Below the pieces are notes generated by a model. It did no database searches, was not told the origin of the DNA, and was given only the letters and a program-made list of their open reading frames with translations. From an uncultured Flavobacteriales bacterium (lineage in GTDB: Bacteria > Bacteroidota > Bacteroidia > Flavobacteriales_D > Parvicellaceae), in contig CAJQPO010000020.1 in assembly GCA_905480225.1 (NCBI GenBank), positions 1 to 64,000 of the forward strand: 64,000 nucleotides of DNA, in the 5' to 3' direction. Made by a program: the position numbers and the translations under genes. Within the stretch, counting starts at the first letter, position 1, and each line of letters begins with the position of its first letter. Shown piece by piece: positions 13,114 through 21,496 of the stretch.

Positions 13114-13626
13114 ATGGCTAATTCAAAACAAGTTAGGTCAACTGACATAGAATTAAAAGATAAACTGGTTACTATTAACCGGGTTACGAAAGTAACCAAA
13201 GGAGGTAGAACATTTAGTTTTTCTGCAATTGTAGTTGTTGGAAATGAAGATGGAGTTGTAGGTCATGGTTTGGGCAAAGCAAAAGAGGTTACTGAAGCTA
13301 TTGCTAAAGCGATCGATGATGCTAAGAAGAATCTGATTAAGGTACCAGTTTTAAAAGGTACAATACCGCATAGTCAGTATGGAAAGTTTTCTGGTGCAAA
13401 GGTTCTTATTAAGCCGGCATCCGGTGGTACTGGTGTTATTGCTGGTGGTGCTATGAGAGCAGTTCTTGAAAGTGTTGGAGTGAAGGATGTTCTTGCTAAA
13501 TCTCAGGGATCATCAAATCCACATAATGTGGTTAAAGCAACAATTGACGCCTTATCTCAACTGAGAGATGCAATGACAGTAGCAAGACAAAGAGGTGTTT
13601 CAATGGATAAAGTATTCAACGGTTAA
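13114..13626 (+). CDS. rpsE: 30S ribosomal protein S5
   Basis: S5 (170 residues) acts in decoding fidelity and at the mRNA entry site. The double-stranded-RNA-binding-like N-terminal domain holds [33 protein letters not shown]. The C-terminal half has [43 protein letters not shown]. Both are highly conserved. rpmD follows immediately. Confidence 0.97.
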
Positions 13627-13637
13627 TTTTGGAAACG

Positions 13638-13811
13638 ATGGAAACAATAAAAATTACTCAAGTAAGAAGTGCAATTAACAGACCTAAAAATCAAAAGTTA
13701 ACTTTGCAGGCTTTAGGCTTGAAAAAAATGCATCAAACTGTTGAGAAGAATGCTACTCCTCAGATTTTAGGAATGGTGAAGACTGTTCAACATTTGGTAA
13801 AAGTTAATTAA
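13638..13811 (+). CDS. rpmD: 50S ribosomal protein L30
   Basis: The 57-residue product METIKITQVRSAINRPKNQ... matches L30, including LQALGLKKMHQTVEKNATPQILGM. I take the ATG at 13638 rather than the in-frame TTG at 13629, because METIKI is the usual N-terminus and the TTG version only adds METM-like extra residues. It is 11 bases after rpsE and 14 before rplO. Confidence 0.93.
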   Translation: METIKITQVRSAINRPKNQKLTLQALGLKKMHQTVEKNATPQILGMVKTVQHLVKVN

Positions 13812-13825
13812 TAAAAGAAATAGAA

Positions 13826-14350
13826 ATGGACTTAAGTAATCTCAAACCTGCGAAAGGATCTACAAAAAGCAAAAAGCGAGTTGGTAGAGGTGAAGGTGCT
13901 GGTACTGGTGGAACTTCCACTAGGGGACATAAAGGCGCTAAATCAAGATCTGGTTATTCGCGAAAAATCGGATTTGAAGGTGGACAAATGCCACTTCAAA
14001 GAAGGGTTCCTAAATTTGGTTTCACGAATCCGAATAGAGTAGCTTATAAAGGGATAAACCTAGATACGCTGCAAGAGTTAATTGACACGAAAAAAGTAAA
14101 AGCTATTGATGCGGAATTACTGGTTTCGAATGGATTAGCGAGTAAAAAAGACTTAATTAAAATCCTCGGAAGGGGAGAGTTAACGAGCAAAATTGAAGTA
14201 ACTGCGCATGCTTATTCTGGAACTGCTAAGGCAGCTATAGAAGCCAAGGGTGGTAAGGCAAGTGTAATCGAAAGTATACACGATAAGCCTGTAGAAGCAG
14301 TTGCAAAGGCAGTTAAAAAAGAAGATGTAGGAACCTCTGAAGAGGAGTAA
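13826..14350 (+). CDS. rplO: 50S ribosomal protein L15 with short acidic tail
   Basis: L15 binds 23S rRNA near the central protuberance. The typical start DLSNLKPAKGSTKSKKRVGRGEGAGTGGTSTRGHKG, the GGQMPLQRRVPKFGF box and the AHAYSGTAKAAIEAKGG C-terminal segment are present. At 174 residues it exceeds the usual length of about 145-150. The extra 24 residues form an Ala/Val/Glu tail ending TSEEE. secY follows after 25 bases. Confidence 0.96.
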   Translation: MDLSNLKPAKGSTKSKKRVGRGEGAGTGGTSTRGHKGAKSRSGYSRKIGFEGGQMPLQRRVPKFGFTNPNRVAYKGINLDTLQELIDTKKVKAIDAELLVSNGLASKKDLIKILGRGELTSKIEVTAHAYSGTAKAAIEAKGGKASVIESIHDKPVEAVAKAVKKEDVGTSEEE

Positions 14351-14375
14351 TTGAATTTAAACCATCCAAAGAGAG

Positions 14376-15695
14376 ATGAAGAACTTTTTTGAAACATTAA
14401 GAAATATTTGGAAGATTAACGATTTACGTGGTCGCATTATTCTTACGTTATCGCTGATTCTAGTCTATCGAATAGGGTGTTTTGTCATATTACCTGGTGT
14501 CGATAGCAATGAGCTGGGAGGCGCTACAGGTGGTTTAGGAGGGCTTCTTGATCTTTTTACCGGAGGTGCGTTCAATAATGCATCCATTTTTGCATTAGGA
14601 ATCATGCCTTATATTTCAGCTTCAATTATCATGCAATTAGCTGGAATTGCCGTTCCTGCGATCCAAAAGCTGCAACGTGAAGGTGAAAGTGGTAGAAAGA
14701 AGATTAATCAATGGACGCGTTACTTAACGATTATTATTTGCTTTTTTCAAGCGCCAACATATTTACAAACGTATGTTTATGGATCAGGTACAGCAGTAAT
14801 ATATGATACTTGGTTGTGGTATGTGGCAGCAGTCACAATTCTAATCTCAGGTACCATGTTTGTCGTGTGGATTGGAGAAAGAATAACAGATAAGGGTATT
14901 GGTAATGGTATATCATTATTAATTATGATTGGAATTATCGCTCGGTTCCCAGCCGCTCTTATTGAAGAAATGAATTTCAAGATGGATAATATGGGGATGG
15001 TTATATTTCTTGTAGAAGTTGTCTTTTTCGTATTGGTTATCGCCTTTTGTATTCTTTTGGTTCAAGGTACGAGAAGAATTCCTATTCAGCATGCGAAAAG
15101 AATTGTTGGAGGAAGAGGTGGCAAACAAATGCTTTCACAAGGACAACGTCAGTATTTGCCTTTAAAAGTGAATGCAGCTGGTGTAATGCCAATTATCTTT
15201 GCCCAAGCCATTATGTTTATTCCTGCTTTGATGTTTGGGGGCAGTACTTTTGCTGATATTTTTGGATTTTGGTATAATCTAGTCTTTGCCTTTATGATCA
15301 TCATATTTACCTATTTCTATACTGCGGTTACTGTTGACCCGAATAGAATTGCTGATGATTTAAAAAGATCGGGTGGATTTATTCCTGGAGTAAAACCTGG
15401 AAGGAAAACAGCGGAATTTATTGACAATTTATTATCTAGGATTACACTTCCTGGTTCTATTTTATTGTCATTGGTGGCGATTTTACCGGCATTTGCAAAT
15501 AAGTTTTTTGGAGTGCAGCAAAACTTTGCATTGTTTTACGGAGGAACCTCTTTACTAATTATGGTAGGAGTAGTTCTAGACACATTACAGCAGATTGAAA
15601 GTCATTTGTTAAGCAATCATTACGATGGTTTAATGAAAGGTACTAAGATTAAAGGAAGAGGCTCAAGTTTGCCTCCTGTTGGTCAGGCGTTTTAA
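14376..15695 (+). CDS. secY: Protein translocase subunit SecY
   Basis: This 439-residue membrane protein forms the Sec channel. Ten hydrophobic segments can be picked out. Signatures include RIGCFVILPGVD in the first transmembrane region, GIMPYISASIIMQL (plug/TM2 region), ITDKGIGNGISLLIMIGI and the cytoplasmic loop DPNRIADDLKRSGGFIPGVKPGRKT. It lies in the usual place between rplO and map. Confidence 0.97.
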   Translation: MKNFFETLRNIWKINDLRGRIILTLSLILVYRIGCFVILPGVDSNELGGATGGLGGLLDLFTGGAFNNASIFALGIMPYISASIIMQLAGIAVPAIQKLQREGESGRKKINQWTRYLTIIICFFQAPTYLQTYVYGSGTAVIYDTWLWYVAAVTILISGTMFVVWIGERITDKGIGNGISLLIMIGIIARFPAALIEEMNFKMDNMGMVIFLVEVVFFVLVIAFCILLVQGTRRIPIQHAKRIVGGRGGKQMLSQGQRQYLPLKVNAAGVMPIIFAQAIMFIPALMFGGSTFADIFGFWYNLVFAFMIIIFTYFYTAVTVDPNRIADDLKRSGGFIPGVKPGRKTAEFIDNLLSRITLPGSILLSLVAILPAFANKFFGVQQNFALFYGGTSLLIMVGVVLDTLQQIESHLLSNHYDGLMKGTKIKGRGSSLPPVGQAF

Positions 15696-15706
15696 AGATA
15701 GATTAG

Positions 15707-16486
15707 ATGATCTTCTTAAAAACGAATGAAGAAATTGAACTGATTAGAGAAAGTTCTTTGCTTGTTGGAAAAACCTTAGCAGAAGTTGCTAAGCACATAA
15801 AACCAGGAGTCACGACTTTAGAGTTGGACAAAATTGCTGAAGATTTCATTCGAGATCATCAAGCTGAACCGGGTTTTTTAGGATATGGGGGATTCCCGAA
15901 TTCACTCTGTACCTCAGTTAATGAGGCAGTAGTGCACGGAATTCCAAATGCTAAACCGCTTGTAAATGGAGATATTGTTTCTATTGATTGTGGTGTGCTG
16001 AAAAATGGTTTCTATGGAGATTCAGCTTATACGTTTGAAATAGGCGAAGTTTCTGAAGAAATCAAGAAACTACTGGAAGTAACAAAAGAATGTTTGAACC
16101 GATCTGTCGCGGCTGCTATAAGTGGTAATAGGTTGGGTGACATTGGATTTGCATGTCAATCATTTGCTGAATCAAATGGTTATGGTGTGGTTAGAGAATT
16201 GGTTGGTCATGGTTTGGGTAAAAACCTACATGAAGAGCCACAGGTACCAAATTATGGCAAAAGAGGAAGAGGAATTAAATTGAAAGAAGGTTGGGTGCTA
16301 GCGATTGAACCAATGATTAATTTGGGAACTAAAAATGTCAAACAACTGAAAGATGGTTGGACAATAGTCACTTCAGATGGTAAGCCATCTGCGCACTTTG
16401 AACATGACATTGCTATTGCTAAAGGAGAACCGTTGATACTTTCAACGTTTGACTTTATAGAAGAGGTTTTGAAGAATAAGAATTAA
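15707..16486 (+). CDS. map: Type I methionine aminopeptidase
   Basis: This 259-residue enzyme removes the initiator Met from nascent proteins. The five metal ligands of the family are visible in context: SIDCG and FYGDSAYTF (two Asp), VGHGLGKNLHEEPQVPN (His), AIEPM (Glu) and HFEHDIAI (Glu). No N-terminal zinc-finger extension is present, so it is the plain bacterial type Ia. It is 11 bases after secY; a 48-base gap with an inverted repeat separates it from infA. Confidence 0.96.
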   Translation: MIFLKTNEEIELIRESSLLVGKTLAEVAKHIKPGVTTLELDKIAEDFIRDHQAEPGFLGYGGFPNSLCTSVNEAVVHGIPNAKPLVNGDIVSIDCGVLKNGFYGDSAYTFEIGEVSEEIKKLLEVTKECLNRSVAAAISGNRLGDIGFACQSFAESNGYGVVRELVGHGLGKNLHEEPQVPNYGKRGRGIKLKEGWVLAIEPMINLGTKNVKQLKDGWTIVTSDGKPSAHFEHDIAIAKGEPLILSTFDFIEEVLKNKN

Positions 16487-16493
16487 TAGTAGC

Positions 16494-16517
16494 GTTTAAA
16501 ACGGAATGGTTTTAAAC
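16494..16517 (+). promoter_or_regulatory. Perfect 9-bp inverted repeat before infA
   Basis: GTTTAAAAC (16494-16502) and GTTTTAAAC (16509-16517) are exact reverse complements around a 6-base loop GGAATG, starting 7 bases after the map stop codon. The 3' arm is followed by A residues rather than T residues, so it is unlikely to terminate rightward transcription. It may be an mRNA processing or translational control hairpin for infA. Confidence 0.5.
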
Positions 16518-16534
16518 AAAAATGAATATAGAAT

Positions 16535-16753
16535 ATGGCTAAACAAGCCTCGATAGAACAAGATGGAGTAATAATAGAAGCATTGTCTAACGCGATGTTT
16601 AGAGTTGAGTTAGAAAATGGTCATATCATTACAGCGCATATCTCAGGAAAAATGAGAATGTATTATATAAAAATATTACCTGGAGATAAGGTGAAAGTAG
16701 CGATGTCACCGTATGATTTAACAAAAGGTAGAATAACATTTAGATACAAATAA
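16535..16753 (+). CDS. infA: Translation initiation factor IF-1
   Basis: The 72-residue OB-fold protein is the normal length for IF-1, which occupies the A site during initiation. The pattern [53 protein letters not shown] is nearly the family consensus. It is followed after 9 bases by rpmJ. Confidence 0.97.
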
Positions 16754-16762
16754 CAAAGGGTC

Positions 16763-16879
16763 ATGAAGACAAGAGCATCAATAAAGAAACGTTCAGCAGA
16801 TTGTAAAATCGTACGACGAAAAGGACGTCTTTTTGTAATTAATAAGAAGAACCCTAAGTTCAAACAAAGACAAGGGTAA
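16763..16879 (+). CDS. rpmJ: 50S ribosomal protein L36 (zinc-free form)
   Basis: A 38-residue frame from ATG 16763 to TAA 16877-16879 reads [19 protein letters not shown] and ends FKQRQG, the L36 signature. Of the four zinc ligands of the classical form (Cys11, Cys14, Cys27, His32) only Cys14 is kept, so it should not bind zinc. It lies 9 bases after infA and 12 before rpsM, its usual position. Confidence 0.96.
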
Positions 16880-16891
16880 AATAAGAATAGT

Positions 16892-17269
16892 ATGGCAAGA
16901 ATTGCAGGAATAGATCTACCAAAGAACAAAAGAGGGGTTATCGGATTAACCTACATCTATGGTATAGGAAGAAGTTCATCAGCGGGAATTTTAAGTAAAG
17001 CTGGGATTGATCATAATATTAAAGTTTCGGATTGGAATGATGATCAATTGGCCGCTATTCGAAAATTGATTAGTGAAGAGTTTAAGGTTGAAGGTGCTTT
17101 GAGGTCAGAGACACAGTTGAACATCAAACGATTGATGGATATTGGATGTCAAAGAGGGATTCGTCATAGAATGAGCCTTCCTTTAAGAGGCCAAAGAACC
17201 AAGAACAACGCGAGAACAAGAAAAGGAAAGAAAAAAACAGTTGCTAACAAGAAAAAGGTAACGAAATAA
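16892..17269 (+). CDS. rpsM: 30S ribosomal protein S13
   Basis: S13 (125 residues) forms intersubunit bridges from the 30S head. It shows [26 protein letters not shown], the [45 protein letters not shown]-terminal region that reaches the P-site tRNA. It opens the alpha-operon order rpsM-rpsK-rpsD-rpoA-rplQ. Confidence 0.97.
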
Positions 17270-17273
17270 TAGA

Positions 17274-17306
17274 CAGCTGCTCCTGGATTTAATTTGGGGA
17301 ATGCTG
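17274..17306 (+). promoter_or_regulatory. Weak stem-loop in the rpsM-rpsK gap
   Basis: The 55-base gap contains CAGC (17274-17277) pairing with GCTG (17303-17306) and an inner TCC (17281-17283) with GGA (17298-17300), separated by a small internal loop. Pairing is limited, so this is only a candidate element. Confidence 0.2.
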
Positions 17307-17324
17307 ATCTAATAAGAAAAGATT

Positions 17325-17711
17325 ATGGCAAAGTCGAATAAAAAATTGAAAAAGAATGTGAAAGTTGATGCAGTAGGTCAAGCTCACATCCATGCTTCGT
17401 TTAATAACATTATCATCTCGTTAACGAATAATAACGGTGATGTTATCTCTTGGTCTTCAGCTGGAAAGCAAGGTTTTAGAGGATCAAAAAAGAATACACC
17501 GTATGCTGCTCAAGTAGCTGCAGAAGAGTGTTCCAAAGAAGCATATGAATTCGGTTTAAGAAAAGTAAAGGTTTATGTAAAGGGTCCAGGTAATGGTAGA
17601 GAATCTGCAATCAGGACAATTCACAACAATGGTATTGAAGTGATGGAAATCATGGATGTTACTCCGTTACCTCATAACGGATGTAGACCACCAAAGAAGA
17701 GAAGAGTATAA
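17325..17711 (+). CDS. rpsK: 30S ribosomal protein S11
   Basis: S11 (128 residues) forms the platform that supports the Shine-Dalgarno helix. Conserved segments are [46 protein letters not shown] and the C-terminal [17 protein letters not shown]. The gaps on both sides (55 and 78 bases) are long for this cluster. Confidence 0.97.
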
Positions 17712-17725
17712 TTATTTATAACCAG

Positions 17726-17774
17726 AGGTGGATTACGATTATCGAAGGACAGACCTTAATTCATAATCCCACTT
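17726..17774 (+). promoter_or_regulatory. Two-part stem-loop leader before rpsD
   Basis: An outer stem of about 10 pairs (17726-17735 with 17764-17774, one bulged C) encloses an inner hairpin AAGG (17745-17748) with CCTT (17754-17757) and a 5-base loop. It fills most of the 78-base rpsK-rpsD gap. S4, the product of rpsD, represses its own mRNA in E. coli and B. subtilis through different RNA structures, so autogenous control is a reasonable guess. No experimental support is available here. Confidence 0.45.
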
Positions 17775-17789
17775 CACAAACAATTAAAA

Positions 17790-18395
17790 ATGGCAAGGTA
17801 TACCGGTCCAAAATCAAAAATCGCCAGGAAATTTAAGGAGCCAATTTTCGGTCCTGACAAGGCGTTAGACAAAAAAGCTTATCCTCCAGGGCAACATGGT
17901 CCAAATAGAAGAAGAGGAAAGAAATCAGAATATGCAGTTCAGCTAGCGGAAAAGCAAAAAGCGAAATATACATATGGGATTTTAGAAAGACAATTTTCGA
18001 ACCTTTTTAAGAAAGCCAATGCTCGCCCAGGTATTACTGGTGAAATTCTTTTGCAATATTGTGAGTCAAGATTAGATAATACAGTCTACAGACTTGGTAT
18101 TGCTCCTTCAAGAAGCGGTGCTAGACAATTAGTTTCGCACAGGCACATTACTGTTAATGGTGGGATTGTGAATATTCCATCTTATCAATTAAAAATTGGT
18201 GATGTTATTAGCATACGGGAAAAGTCTAAATCTTTAGTAGTGATTTCCGATTCTTTAGCTGCAAATACAGCTAAATTTGATTGGTTAGAGTGGAATGGAT
18301 CTACTTTTAGTGGAACATTTTCAGCTGTACCTGAAAGAGAGCAGATTCCTGAAAACATTAAAGAACAATTAATCGTCGAGCTTTACTCGAAGTAA
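17790..18395 (+). CDS. rpsD: 30S ribosomal protein S4
   Basis: This 201-residue primary rRNA-binding protein nucleates 30S assembly. It starts [25 protein letters not shown] and has the [34 protein letters not shown] segment. An S4 RNA-binding domain follows around [44 protein letters not shown]. No N-terminal cysteine zinc site is present. Likely subject to feedback control through the preceding structured gap. Confidence 0.97.
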
Positions 18396-18427
18396 TATTA
18401 ATAATTAACATTGGAATTTAGCCAAAG

Positions 18428-18459
18428 GGTCTGCAAGACGTTCTTCAAGCTTCAGGACC
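18428..18459 (+). promoter_or_regulatory. Nested stem-loops in the rpsD-rpoA gap
   Basis: GGTC (18428-18431) pairs with GACC (18456-18459). Inside it AAGA (18435-18438) pairs with TCTT (18442-18445) around a 3-base loop. The whole gap is 98 bases, the longest within the ribosomal cluster. The function is unknown; it could be an RNA processing or translational control site. Confidence 0.3.
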
Positions 18460-18493
18460 GCGCAACTAAAGGACAATTAAAAAGAAGAAAAAA

Positions 18494-19486
18494 ATGGCAA
18501 TATTAGATTTTCAAAAACCAGATAAAGTGATTATGATCTCTGCCGATGATAATCATGGTGAATTCGAATTCCGTCCTCTCGAACCAGGATATGGAATTAC
18601 TGTAGGTAATGCGTTAAGGAGGATTTTACTTTCTTCATTAGAAGGATTTGCAATTACTTCGGTTAAAATAGAAGGTGTAGATCATGAGTTTTCTACGATA
18701 AAAGGAATCGTTGAAGATGTTACTGAAATTGTGTTGAATTTGAAGCAAGTAAGATTCAAAAGACAAATTGAGGAAACAGACTCTGAAAAAGTAGTAATTA
18801 ACATCGCAGGTCAAGACCAATTGACAGCCGGTGATTTGGGTAATTTCACCTCAGCTTTTCAAGTGCTTAATCCACACCATGTGATTTGTAACATGGAATC
18901 AAAAGTGAAATTAAATATTGAAATGACTATAGCAAAAGGTAGGGGATATGTACCTGCTGAAGAAAATAACACTGGCGGTGCGGCCGTAGGTACTATTTTT
19001 GTTGATTCAATTTTTACTCCGATTCGCAATGTAAAATACAGCATTGAAAACTATAGAGTAGAGCAAAAAACAGATTACGAAAAGTTGGTTCTAGCTATTG
19101 ATTCAGATGGTTCGGTGCATCCAAAAGAGGCACTAAAAGAAGCAGCGAAAATTTTAATTCATCACTTTATGTTGTTCTCAGATGAGAGAATAACCTTGGA
19201 TGATGATGAGAAATCAGAAACAGAAGAATTTGACGAGACTTCATTGCACATGCGTCAGTTATTGAAAACAAAGCTTGTAGACATGGATTTGTCTGTACGG
19301 GCATTAAATTGTTTGAAAGCAGCAGATGTAGAAACACTTGGAGATTTAGTTTCTTATAATAAGAATGACCTCTTGAAGTTTAGAAACTTCGGTAAGAAGT
19401 CTTTAACAGAATTAGAAGATTTAATCGAATCTAAAGGATTGTCTTTCGGAATGAATGTTTCGAAATATAAATTAGATAAAGATTAA
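18494..19486 (+). CDS. rpoA: DNA-directed RNA polymerase subunit alpha
   Basis: This 330-residue protein has normal alpha length. The N-terminal assembly domain contains [48 protein letters not shown]. The C-terminal domain (about residues 255-325), which contacts promoter UP elements and activators, holds [46 protein letters not shown]. The linker is acidic ([13 protein letters not shown]). It is preceded by a 98-base gap and followed after 36 bases by rplQ. Confidence 0.98.
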
Positions 19487-19522
19487 TATAATAATTCAGC
19501 GAATTAAAAAAGTTTTACCGCG

Positions 19523-20239
19523 ATGAGACACGGGAAAAAGTTCAATCATTTAGGGAGAAAAAAGGCTCATAGAGAGGCGATGTTAAGAAACATGGCTTGC
19601 TCCTTAATAGAACACAAAAGAATAAAAACAACCGTAGCTAAGGCGAAAGCGCTTAGAATGTTTGTTGAGCCTCTAATTACAAAGTCTAAGACTGATGTAA
19701 TGCATTCAAGAAGAACGGTGTTCAGTAGCTTGAACAATAAGCACGCTGTAACAGAGTTGTTTCGAGAAGTAGCGCCAAAAGTCATTGATAGAAATGGTGG
19801 TTACACAAGAATCATAAAGATTGGTAATCGACTAGGAGATAATGCAGAAATGTGTTATATCGAGTTAGTGGACTTCAATGAATTGATGCTTGCAGATTCT
19901 AAGCCAGCCGGTAAAAAAGCGAAAAGAAGTCGAAGAGGTGGTGGTGCTAAAAAAGCTACGAGTGACGTTGCTGCTGCAGCTGCAGCAGATGCGGTGGTCG
20001 TATCAGAAGAAGCAGCACCTGTAGAAGATGTAGAAGCAGTTGTCGAAGAAGCCGCTCCTGCAGTTGAATCAGAAGCAGTTGCTGAAGAGGCGGTTCCTGA
20101 AGCAGAAGCAGTTGTCGAAGAAGACGTTCCTGCAGTTGAATCAGAAGCTGTTGCTGAAGAATCAGCTTCTAGGGAAGATGAAGAAAAAGACGACGAAGAC
20201 CAAGAGAATTCGGAGGACACTAAATCTGAAAAAGAATAA
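19523..20239 (+). CDS. rplQ: 50S ribosomal protein L17 with long basic-then-acidic C-terminal tail
   Basis: Residues 1-120 form a complete L17 core ([25 protein letters not shown] start, CYIELVDFN end). L17 lies beside the tunnel exit. The E. coli protein has 127 residues, this one has 238. The extra part has a Lys/Arg stretch (about 131-145), an Ala run and an 80-residue tail of Ala, Val, Glu and Asp with an internal 24-residue duplication. The tail has no recognised fold and is probably disordered. Tails of this kind occur on L17 of some Bacteroidota as far as I recall, but not usually this long. It is the last gene of the cluster. Confidence 0.95.
20033..20165 (+). repeat. 72-bp direct repeat in the rplQ tail
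   Basis: GAAGCAGTTGTCGAAGAAG begins at 20033 and again at 20105, a 72-bp (24-codon) period. Both copies continue with CCTGCAGTTGAATCAGAAGC. The repeat encodes EAVVEE[13 protein letters not shown] twice, so the acidic tail grew by in-frame duplication. Confidence 0.85.
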
Positions 20240-20260
20240 TAAATTAATTTCATTCATAGG

Positions 20261-20290
20261 AAAGGGAGGCTGTTGCTTCCCTTTTTTTTT
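20261..20290 (+). terminator. Terminator of the ribosomal protein supercluster
   Basis: AAAGGGAG (20261-20268) pairs with the segment ending TCCCTTT (20277-20284), and the stem runs straight into a tract of nine T residues. It starts 21 bases after the rplQ stop codon and marks the end of the 18-kb cluster. Confidence 0.85.
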
Positions 20291-20339
20291 GCATTCAACT
20301 ATGAAACTGTTAACATTAGGTGAAGAAATTTAACAACTT

Positions 20340-20373
20340 TTGCTAAAGCTTAATACGACAAAATTTATCTTTG
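20340..20373 (+). promoter_or_regulatory. carA promoter (TTG-N23-TATCTTTG), nearly leaderless
   Basis: TATCTTTG at 20366-20373 matches the Bacteroidota -7 box exactly; TTG lies 23 bases upstream at 20340-20342, at the long end of the usual spacing. Only four bases separate the -7 box from the carA ATG, so transcription should begin at or beside the start codon. Confidence 0.65.
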
Positions 20374-20377
20374 CATT

Positions 20378-21496
20378 ATGAGAGCGCAAGAAAGAACTCC
20401 AGCAATCCTGTTATTAGAAGATGGTACAGTGTTTCAAGGATATGCTGCTGGTTCGGTTGGAACCACTACCGGTGAGATAGCATTTAATACAGGTATGACT
20501 GGATATCAAGAGATTTTTACAGATCCTTCGTATTTCGGTCAAATTATAATAATGGCGACATCCCACATTGGTAATTATGGCATACAGAATGACGAAATAG
20601 AATCAGATTCTGTGAAAATTTCAGGAATGGTTTGTAAAAAATTCTCTGAGGTAGCTTCACGATATGGAGGTGATGGTTCATTGAATGATTACTTTGAAAA
20701 AGAACATTTGGTTGGTATATGTGAGTTGGATACTAGAAAGTTAGTGCGGCACATTCGACATAAAGGGGCAATGAATGCCATCATTTCTTCAGAAGAATTG
20801 GATATTGAAATTTTAATGTCAAAACTTAAGACGGTTCCTTCCATGGCAGGCCTTGAATTGGCTTCAAAAGTTTCTTGTACTGAGAGTTTTGAAATAGGTA
20901 CTGAAAACCAAAACAAAGTCGCTTTGCTGGATTTTGGGGTGAAAAAGAATATCATCAGGGCATTAGTTGATAGAGGATGCCACATCAAGGTTTTCCCATG
21001 GAATTCAAAGGCCAGTGAGATAATGGCCTGGAATCCTGATGGAATAATGCTTTCTAACGGACCAGGTGATCCATCTGTAATGCCAGAAGTTATCACTACT
21101 GTGCAAGAAATCGTTGCTTCAGAAATTCCTGTATTTGGAATATGTTTAGGCCATCAATTACTAGCATTAAGTCAGGGATTGGTAACGAAAAAAATGCACA
21201 ATGGTCACAGGGGGATTAATCATCCGATTAAAAATATGATTACTGGCAAGTGTGAAGTTACTTCACAAAATCACGGTTTCGTTGTTGACATGGATTCAGC
21301 GAATGAACACGGTAATATAGAAGTAACACATGTTCACCTGAATGATAACACATTGGCTGGAATTAAGGTGAAGGATAAGTTAGCGTTTTCGGTGCAATAT
21401 CATCCTGAAGCAGGACCAGGACCGAATGATGCTAAATATCTTTTTGATAATTTTTTAGAGAATATTATCAAAGCAAAACAAATTCAAACAGTGTAA
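20378..21496 (+). CDS. carA: Carbamoyl-phosphate synthase small (glutaminase) subunit
   Basis: This 372-residue subunit hydrolyses glutamine and passes ammonia to CarB for arginine and pyrimidine synthesis. The N-terminal domain has LLLEDGTVFQGYAAGSVGTTTGEIAFNTGMTGYQEIFTDPSYFGQ. The class I amidotransferase domain has Cys256 in FGICLGHQL and His342/Glu344 in QYHPEAGPGP, completing the triad. carB is not in the window. The gene has its own promoter after the rplQ terminator; eno follows after 21 bases and is probably co-transcribed. Confidence 0.97.
   Translation: MRAQERTPAILLLEDGTVFQGYAAGSVGTTTGEIAFNTGMTGYQEIFTDPSYFGQIIIMATSHIGNYGIQNDEIESDSVKISGMVCKKFSEVASRYGGDGSLNDYFEKEHLVGICELDTRKLVRHIRHKGAMNAIISSEELDIEILMSKLKTVPSMAGLELASKVSCTESFEIGTENQNKVALLDFGVKKNIIRALVDRGCHIKVFPWNSKASEIMAWNPDGIMLSNGPGDPSVMPEVITTVQEIVASEIPVFGICLGHQLLALSQGLVTKKMHNGHRGINHPIKNMITGKCEVTSQNHGFVVDMDSANEHGNIEVTHVHLNDNTLAGIKVKDKLAFSVQYHPEAGPGPNDAKYLFDNFLENIIKAKQIQTV

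Follow-up and report, generated by a model that had tools for sequence, protein, structure and literature searches.

The window, a 64,000-nucleotide stretch of DNA from an uncultured Flavobacteriales bacterium, carries an alpha operon with its genes in the order rpsM, rpsK, rpsD, rpoA, and rplQ. The leader element under study lies on the forward strand in the intercistronic gap between rpsK and rpsD, at positions 17712 to 17789, and the flanking open reading frames bound this gap exactly: rpsK (17325 to 17711, + strand) ends with its stop codon at 17711, and the ATG of rpsD (17790 to 18395, + strand) begins at 17790. The 201-amino-acid product of rpsD is ribosomal protein S4, the expected ligand of the element. 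Downstream of rpsD follow rpoA (from 18494) and rplQ (from 19523), and a terminator-like hairpin with a T run lies 3' of rplQ (20258 to 20287, + strand), which is likely the end of the operon. The closest named rpsD loci are from Flavobacteriales, including Crocinitomicaceae, at 77 to 79% identity. Farther upstream, the fold of the rpsM-rpsK gap (17270 to 17324, + strand) beats its shuffles with a z score of -3.01; similar sequence is absent from the rpsM-rpsK gaps of relatives, and this hairpin is not conserved. Several Flavobacteriaceae (L037, L048, L052, L060, L067, L068, L084, L089, and L099) have a GAATCTGTTTGAAAT...TAGGATTC stretch in common in their rpsM-rpsK gaps, and this stretch is absent from the rpsM-rpsK gap of the window.

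The initial annotation had placed a candidate S4 autoregulatory leader in the gap before rpsD, folded into a 10-pair outer stem with an inner hairpin. Its coordinates are exactly those of the rpsK-rpsD gap, and the fold proved to be real: the minimum free energy of the gap is -14.8 kcal/mol, compared with a mean of -7.33 (standard deviation, 2.25) for 200 dinucleotide shuffles (z score, -3.32), and none of the 200 shuffles was as stable. The minimum-energy fold, with 7 + 4 pairs in its outer stem plus an inner hairpin, comes close to the structure given in the initial annotation.

The Rfam library includes the other S4 leader families (E. coli alpha operon, B. subtilis, Bacteroidia, Clostridia, and Fusobacteriales). 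When Rfam release 15 was searched, positions 17737 to 17768 (+ strand) matched RF03141, the S4-Flavobacteria ribosomal protein leader family, with 47.6 bits against a gathering cut-off of 35.2 and an E value of 1.4e-6 over the whole window. The alignment spans model positions 1 to 33 of 33 with no nonstandard pair, so that the consensus pairing of the core is kept. This is the sole RF03141 match in the host genome and the sole Rfam match below an E value of 0.1 in positions 13500 to 20400, where the E. coli alpha-operon, Firmicutes S4, and S4-Bacteroidia leader families gave no match up to an E value of 10. Table 1 of Eckert and Weinberg 2020 (PMC7247131) has an entry for the RF03141 motif, with S4 as ligand, "Prior" as basis, a rating of "Y," Flavobacteria as lineage, and rpsD, rpoA, and rplQ as the regulated genes. 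In the passages of that paper that deal with these motifs, the S4 assignment derives from operon content and analogy with other S4 leaders rather than from measurement, the authors call their own ligand assignments uncertain, and the Bacteroidia and Flavobacteria S4 motifs are stated to have no meaningful similarity to each other, to earlier S4 leaders, or to rRNA. The element in the window is a catalogued regulatory-RNA candidate and belongs to an already known family. The S4-leader reading thus stands as far as it concerns a conserved, structured RNA directly before rpsD with strong covariation, for which the published prediction also names S4; the accompanying remark that such a leader had not been described was mistaken. 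A search by title of the literature outside subscription journals found no experimental test of the S4-Flavobacteria leader. Since the family is already catalogued, the window adds one member to it, and the use of the present analysis lies in a corrected anatomy. The element shares with RF03141 (PMC7247131) the core sequence, the core pairing, the position before rpsD-rpoA-rplQ, and the lineage; it differs from the Rfam model, which is compared here in place of the figures of the paper, in that the model ends at the 33-nt core, whereas here and in most relatives an outer helix, P0, and a 5' bulge are added.

From the outside inward, the structure on the + strand begins with P0, a 7-bp helix outside the Rfam model (17725 to 17731 with 17769 to 17775), which was identified by an arm-swap test and by covariation. 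Between P0 and P1 lies an asymmetric 5' bulge of 5 nt (17732 to 17736), variable among relatives in sequence and in length (2 to 9 nt, mostly 5 to 7). Comparison then places P1 (17737 to 17742 with 17763 to 17768), a single pair between P1 and P2 (17744 with 17762), and P2, an AAGG/CCTT helix with the loop ACAGA (17745 to 17748 with 17754 to 17757), which is followed on its 3' side by an AATT bulge (17758 to 17761). This bulge and the last three pairs of P2 (GG/CC and the neighboring A-T) are unchanged in all 85 elements, and at model positions 8 and 27, 79 of the 85 have a G-C pair and the other 6 an A-T pair. The sequence of P1 varies with compensation, and its pairing is supported when the arms are dealt among the elements (12.01 versus 8.57; 0 of 500 as high). 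The upper pairs of the outer stem in the minimum-energy fold, which join positions 17732 to 17735 of the bulge to the 3' arm of P1, lack comparative support: across 74 elements they scored 5.97, compared with 6.00 for swapped arms, and 280 of 500 shuffles were as high. The 10-pair stem originally described was therefore right about P0 and had its upper part in the wrong register. We set aside a two-state switch, in which the 3' arm of P1 would have the bulge as an alternative partner: the arm-swap test gave no comparative support for it. In the window, the energy of the comparative structure is -12.9 kcal/mol (-14.2 without the 17744-17762 pair) versus -14.8 for the minimum-energy fold; because the two folds lie 0.6 to 1.9 kcal/mol apart, energy alone cannot decide between them.

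Covariation had been set beforehand as the check that could overturn the element, and it came out in the element's favor. For P0, we sought the best helix that the sequences flanking the core on its 5' and 3' sides can form and dealt the 3' arms randomly among 77 nonredundant elements, duplicate records (L017/L034 and L011/L046) having been removed before the test. The real arms scored a mean of 14.09, compared with 8.07 for dealt arms (standard deviation, 0.29; highest, 9.19), and 0 of 1,000 deals were as high. P0 has at least five pairs in 67 of the 77 elements, versus 47% with dealt arms; it is not universal, because 10 of the 77, some of them with short gaps, have fewer than five. Its sequence varies freely in relatives while the pairing is kept. 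In an alignment that was not fitted to a structure (A2), both partners change in all seven P0 pairs, with 92.5% of cells paired; A2, like our extended model R1, draws on 19 elements selected because their bulge is 5 nt long, which favors P0 in A2, and the swap test with all 77 nonredundant elements is free of this bias. All seven pairs also change on both sides in A3 (62 distinct sequences; 91.6% pair) and in A8 (19 loci outside the training set; 90.8% pair), and both A2 and A8 show covariation in P0 and P1 alike; A3 and A8, together with A5 and A7, were fitted to the model structure and so lean towards it. A8 holds 19 of the 23 loci found in a search of the class, after L104, L105, L109, and L124 were dropped as repeats of the window, L007, L013, and L009, respectively. 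RNAalifold was also run on A1, which comprises 57 of the 85 elements (the named loci and the window, excluding redundant ones and L009, L036, L041, L050, L064, L079, and L083), and predicted only P1 and P2, not P0; A1 is unable to show P0 because the variable bulges shift it out of register. Binding or structural work on the 33-nt Rfam model would omit a helix that most family members keep.

The distance from this helix to the start codon is also constrained. The 3' end of P0 lies 13 to 17 nt before the rpsD AUG in every one of the 67 elements that form five or more P0 pairs, and 14 nt before it in the window; P1 ends 18 to 24 nt before the AUG in 81 of the 85 elements. The spacer between P0 and the AUG is A-rich.

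Among 80 named loci with a close rpsD, 54 (14, 16, 11, and 13 per 20) have an RF03141 match above the cut-off just upstream of rpsD, and no other Rfam family matched those 80 loci at curated cut-offs. We examined 101 gaps in all, namely, the window, the 80 named loci, and 20 loci fetched from genomes because they hold the element; the core is missing in 16 of these, seven of which are gaps of only 25 to 34 nt. RF03141 was found in 21 of 60 genomes of relatives and in 23 of 296 genomes of the class. Its absence from 16 of 101 gaps and from many of the relatives indicates that the element is dispensable in some lineages. Wherever the RNA searches found it, its place is exclusively before rpsD, which is directly downstream in 44 of 44 loci (L001 to L021 and L102 to L124; 43 were checked by script and L123 by eye). 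R1 matches 63 of the 80 named loci and the window at E values up to 1, versus 54 of 80 for RF03141 at the stricter Rfam cut-off, so that the two counts refer to different thresholds. In whole genomes R1 is not more sensitive than RF03141, as the two models find an identical set of 23 among the 296 class genomes, and R1 recovered 18 of the 60 relatives, versus 21 for RF03141.

On these comparisons, we think it quite probable that this member of the S4-Flavobacteria leader family acts through S4 binding that blocks translation initiation at rpsD. Free S4 in excess of the available 16S rRNA would bind the hairpin, most likely recognizing the conserved part formed by P2, the loop-closing portion, and the AAUU bulge; the P0-P1 helix would keep that site a constant distance away from the start codon. 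With its base about 14 nt before the AUG, the S4-bound hairpin would then block 30S initiation at rpsD, and the block may reach rpoA and rplQ downstream. There is no T run 3' of the leader hairpin, and a terminator scan there was empty, which favors translational control over attenuation; transcription attenuation was set aside on this ground. In what PMC9976891 reports for Flavobacterium (F. johnsoniae), rpsD is without a Shine-Dalgarno sequence, and the fixed 13 to 17 nt between P0 and the AUG suggest that initiation is controlled sterically in bacteria that manage without Shine-Dalgarno pairing.

The identity of the ligand is where an S4-operated leader is most open to a competing account. 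Genes for S13, S11, alpha, and L17 belong to the operon as well, the published basis for S4 is "Prior," and the motif is without resemblance to rRNA according to the passages of PMC7247131 in which its authors discuss it, all of which would suit a real ribosomal leader that answers to L17, S11, S13, or RNA polymerase alpha. The element, however, lies directly before rpsD and nowhere else, and S4 is one of the proteins that bind rRNA directly as primary binders and has been proven to regulate its own synthesis in both E. coli and B. subtilis, as stated in the relevant part of PMC10931766; we therefore regard a ligand other than S4 as improbable. Rather less credible still is an intercistronic processing or stability hairpin, protected from or cleaved by RNase, that would set the ratio of upstream to downstream message with no ribosomal protein bound. 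Such a role would fit the location of the element, which is within the operon in the rpsK-rpsD gap and not at the 5' end of a transcript, and the sole adjoining promoter-like site (17684 to 17712) is one of 8 where 11.9 are expected in shuffles; having fewer such sites than its shuffles, the region gave us no reason to retain this one as a promoter. The invariant P2 and AATT bulge, however, resemble a recognition site and not a generic stem, and its constant distance from the rpsD AUG points to control of initiation. As for a chance fold of an A+T-rich gap, a z score of -3.3 is by itself no strong evidence for a single gap picked by eye, but the E value of the Rfam match and covariation beyond every shuffle refute this explanation, to which we give almost no credence.

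An S4-binding leader in this position would share its presumed ligand and its feedback logic with the other S4 leaders, namely, the E. coli alpha operon pseudoknot, the B. subtilis rpsD leader, and the Bacteroidia, Clostridia, and Fusobacteriales motifs; it differs from them in that none matches this stretch of the window in Rfam at E values up to 10. The control of rpsU by bS21 in Flavobacterium is likewise autogenous and acts on the gene of a small-subunit protein in the same lineage, but as described in the pertinent part of PMC9976891 it relies on an extended Shine-Dalgarno sequence and ribosomes without bS21 and not on a protein-bound leader.

The rpsD-rpoA gap holds a second element, a candidate leader for rpoA-rplQ (18410 to 18477, + strand), which was identified by comparison and RNAalifold. 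RNAalifold predicts three helices on the + strand: P1 (18410 to 18413 with 18474 to 18477), P2 (18416 to 18421 with 18466 to 18471), and P3 (18428 to 18433 with 18454 to 18459). The element is common to the rpsD-rpoA gaps of the window and 25 of the 80 named loci, and in a MAFFT alignment of these 26 sequences RNAalifold found 16 pairs, 9 of them with changes on both sides; shuffles and slid partners score far below the real pairing. In ten further genome matches aligned to the model, 10 of the 16 pairs change on both sides. Of 296 class genomes, 11 contain the element, in every case immediately upstream of rpoA, and a pattern search found it once in the genome of the window. It had no Rfam match up to an E value of 10 in the window, nor any at curated cut-offs in the 80 loci, and it is not named in the literature that we found by a title search outside subscription journals. 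In the window, the copy is no more stable than its shuffles (z score, -0.39), and the case for this element therefore rests on comparison. It was accompanied by the S4 leader in 23 of 25 loci (Fisher's exact test, P = 0.076), a value that counts R1 matches, of which L080 was missed despite an S4 core recognizable by eye, and that ignores relatedness. Within single genera (Lutibacter, Aequorivita, and Tenacibaculum), the rpoA element can be present or absent (e.g., L028 versus L030, L044 versus L072, and L085 versus L095); its absence leaves rpsD-rpoA gaps of 16 to 22 nt, a pattern of frequent loss or gain. We lean toward the view that the Flavobacteriales alpha operon carries two regulatory RNAs, an enlarged S4 leader whose P0 sets the spacing to the AUG and an Rfam-unmatched leader about 10 nt before rpoA, the latter perhaps uncoupling alpha and L17 from S4 feedback. 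The rpoA element is a more novel lead than the S4 leader.

Pedobacter and its relatives have a different leader before rpsD, for which a model was built from eight Pedobacter loci (L063, positions 1439 to 1500; L073, L075, L076, L088, L091, L093, and L094). At E values up to 1, no Rfam match overlaps this leader, and it is not named in the literature outside subscription journals that a search by title returned. If confirmed, this rpsD leader of the Sphingobacteriaceae and the rpoA element would be more cases of one operon being repeatedly fitted with different RNA regulators. The Pedobacter-type leader has an outer TTTAAAG/CTTTAAA stem and a covarying inner hairpin; its model matches 14 of 395 class genomes (L125 to L138), all of one family and each before rpsD, and in a model-fitted alignment 6 of the 9 inner pairs show changes in both partners.
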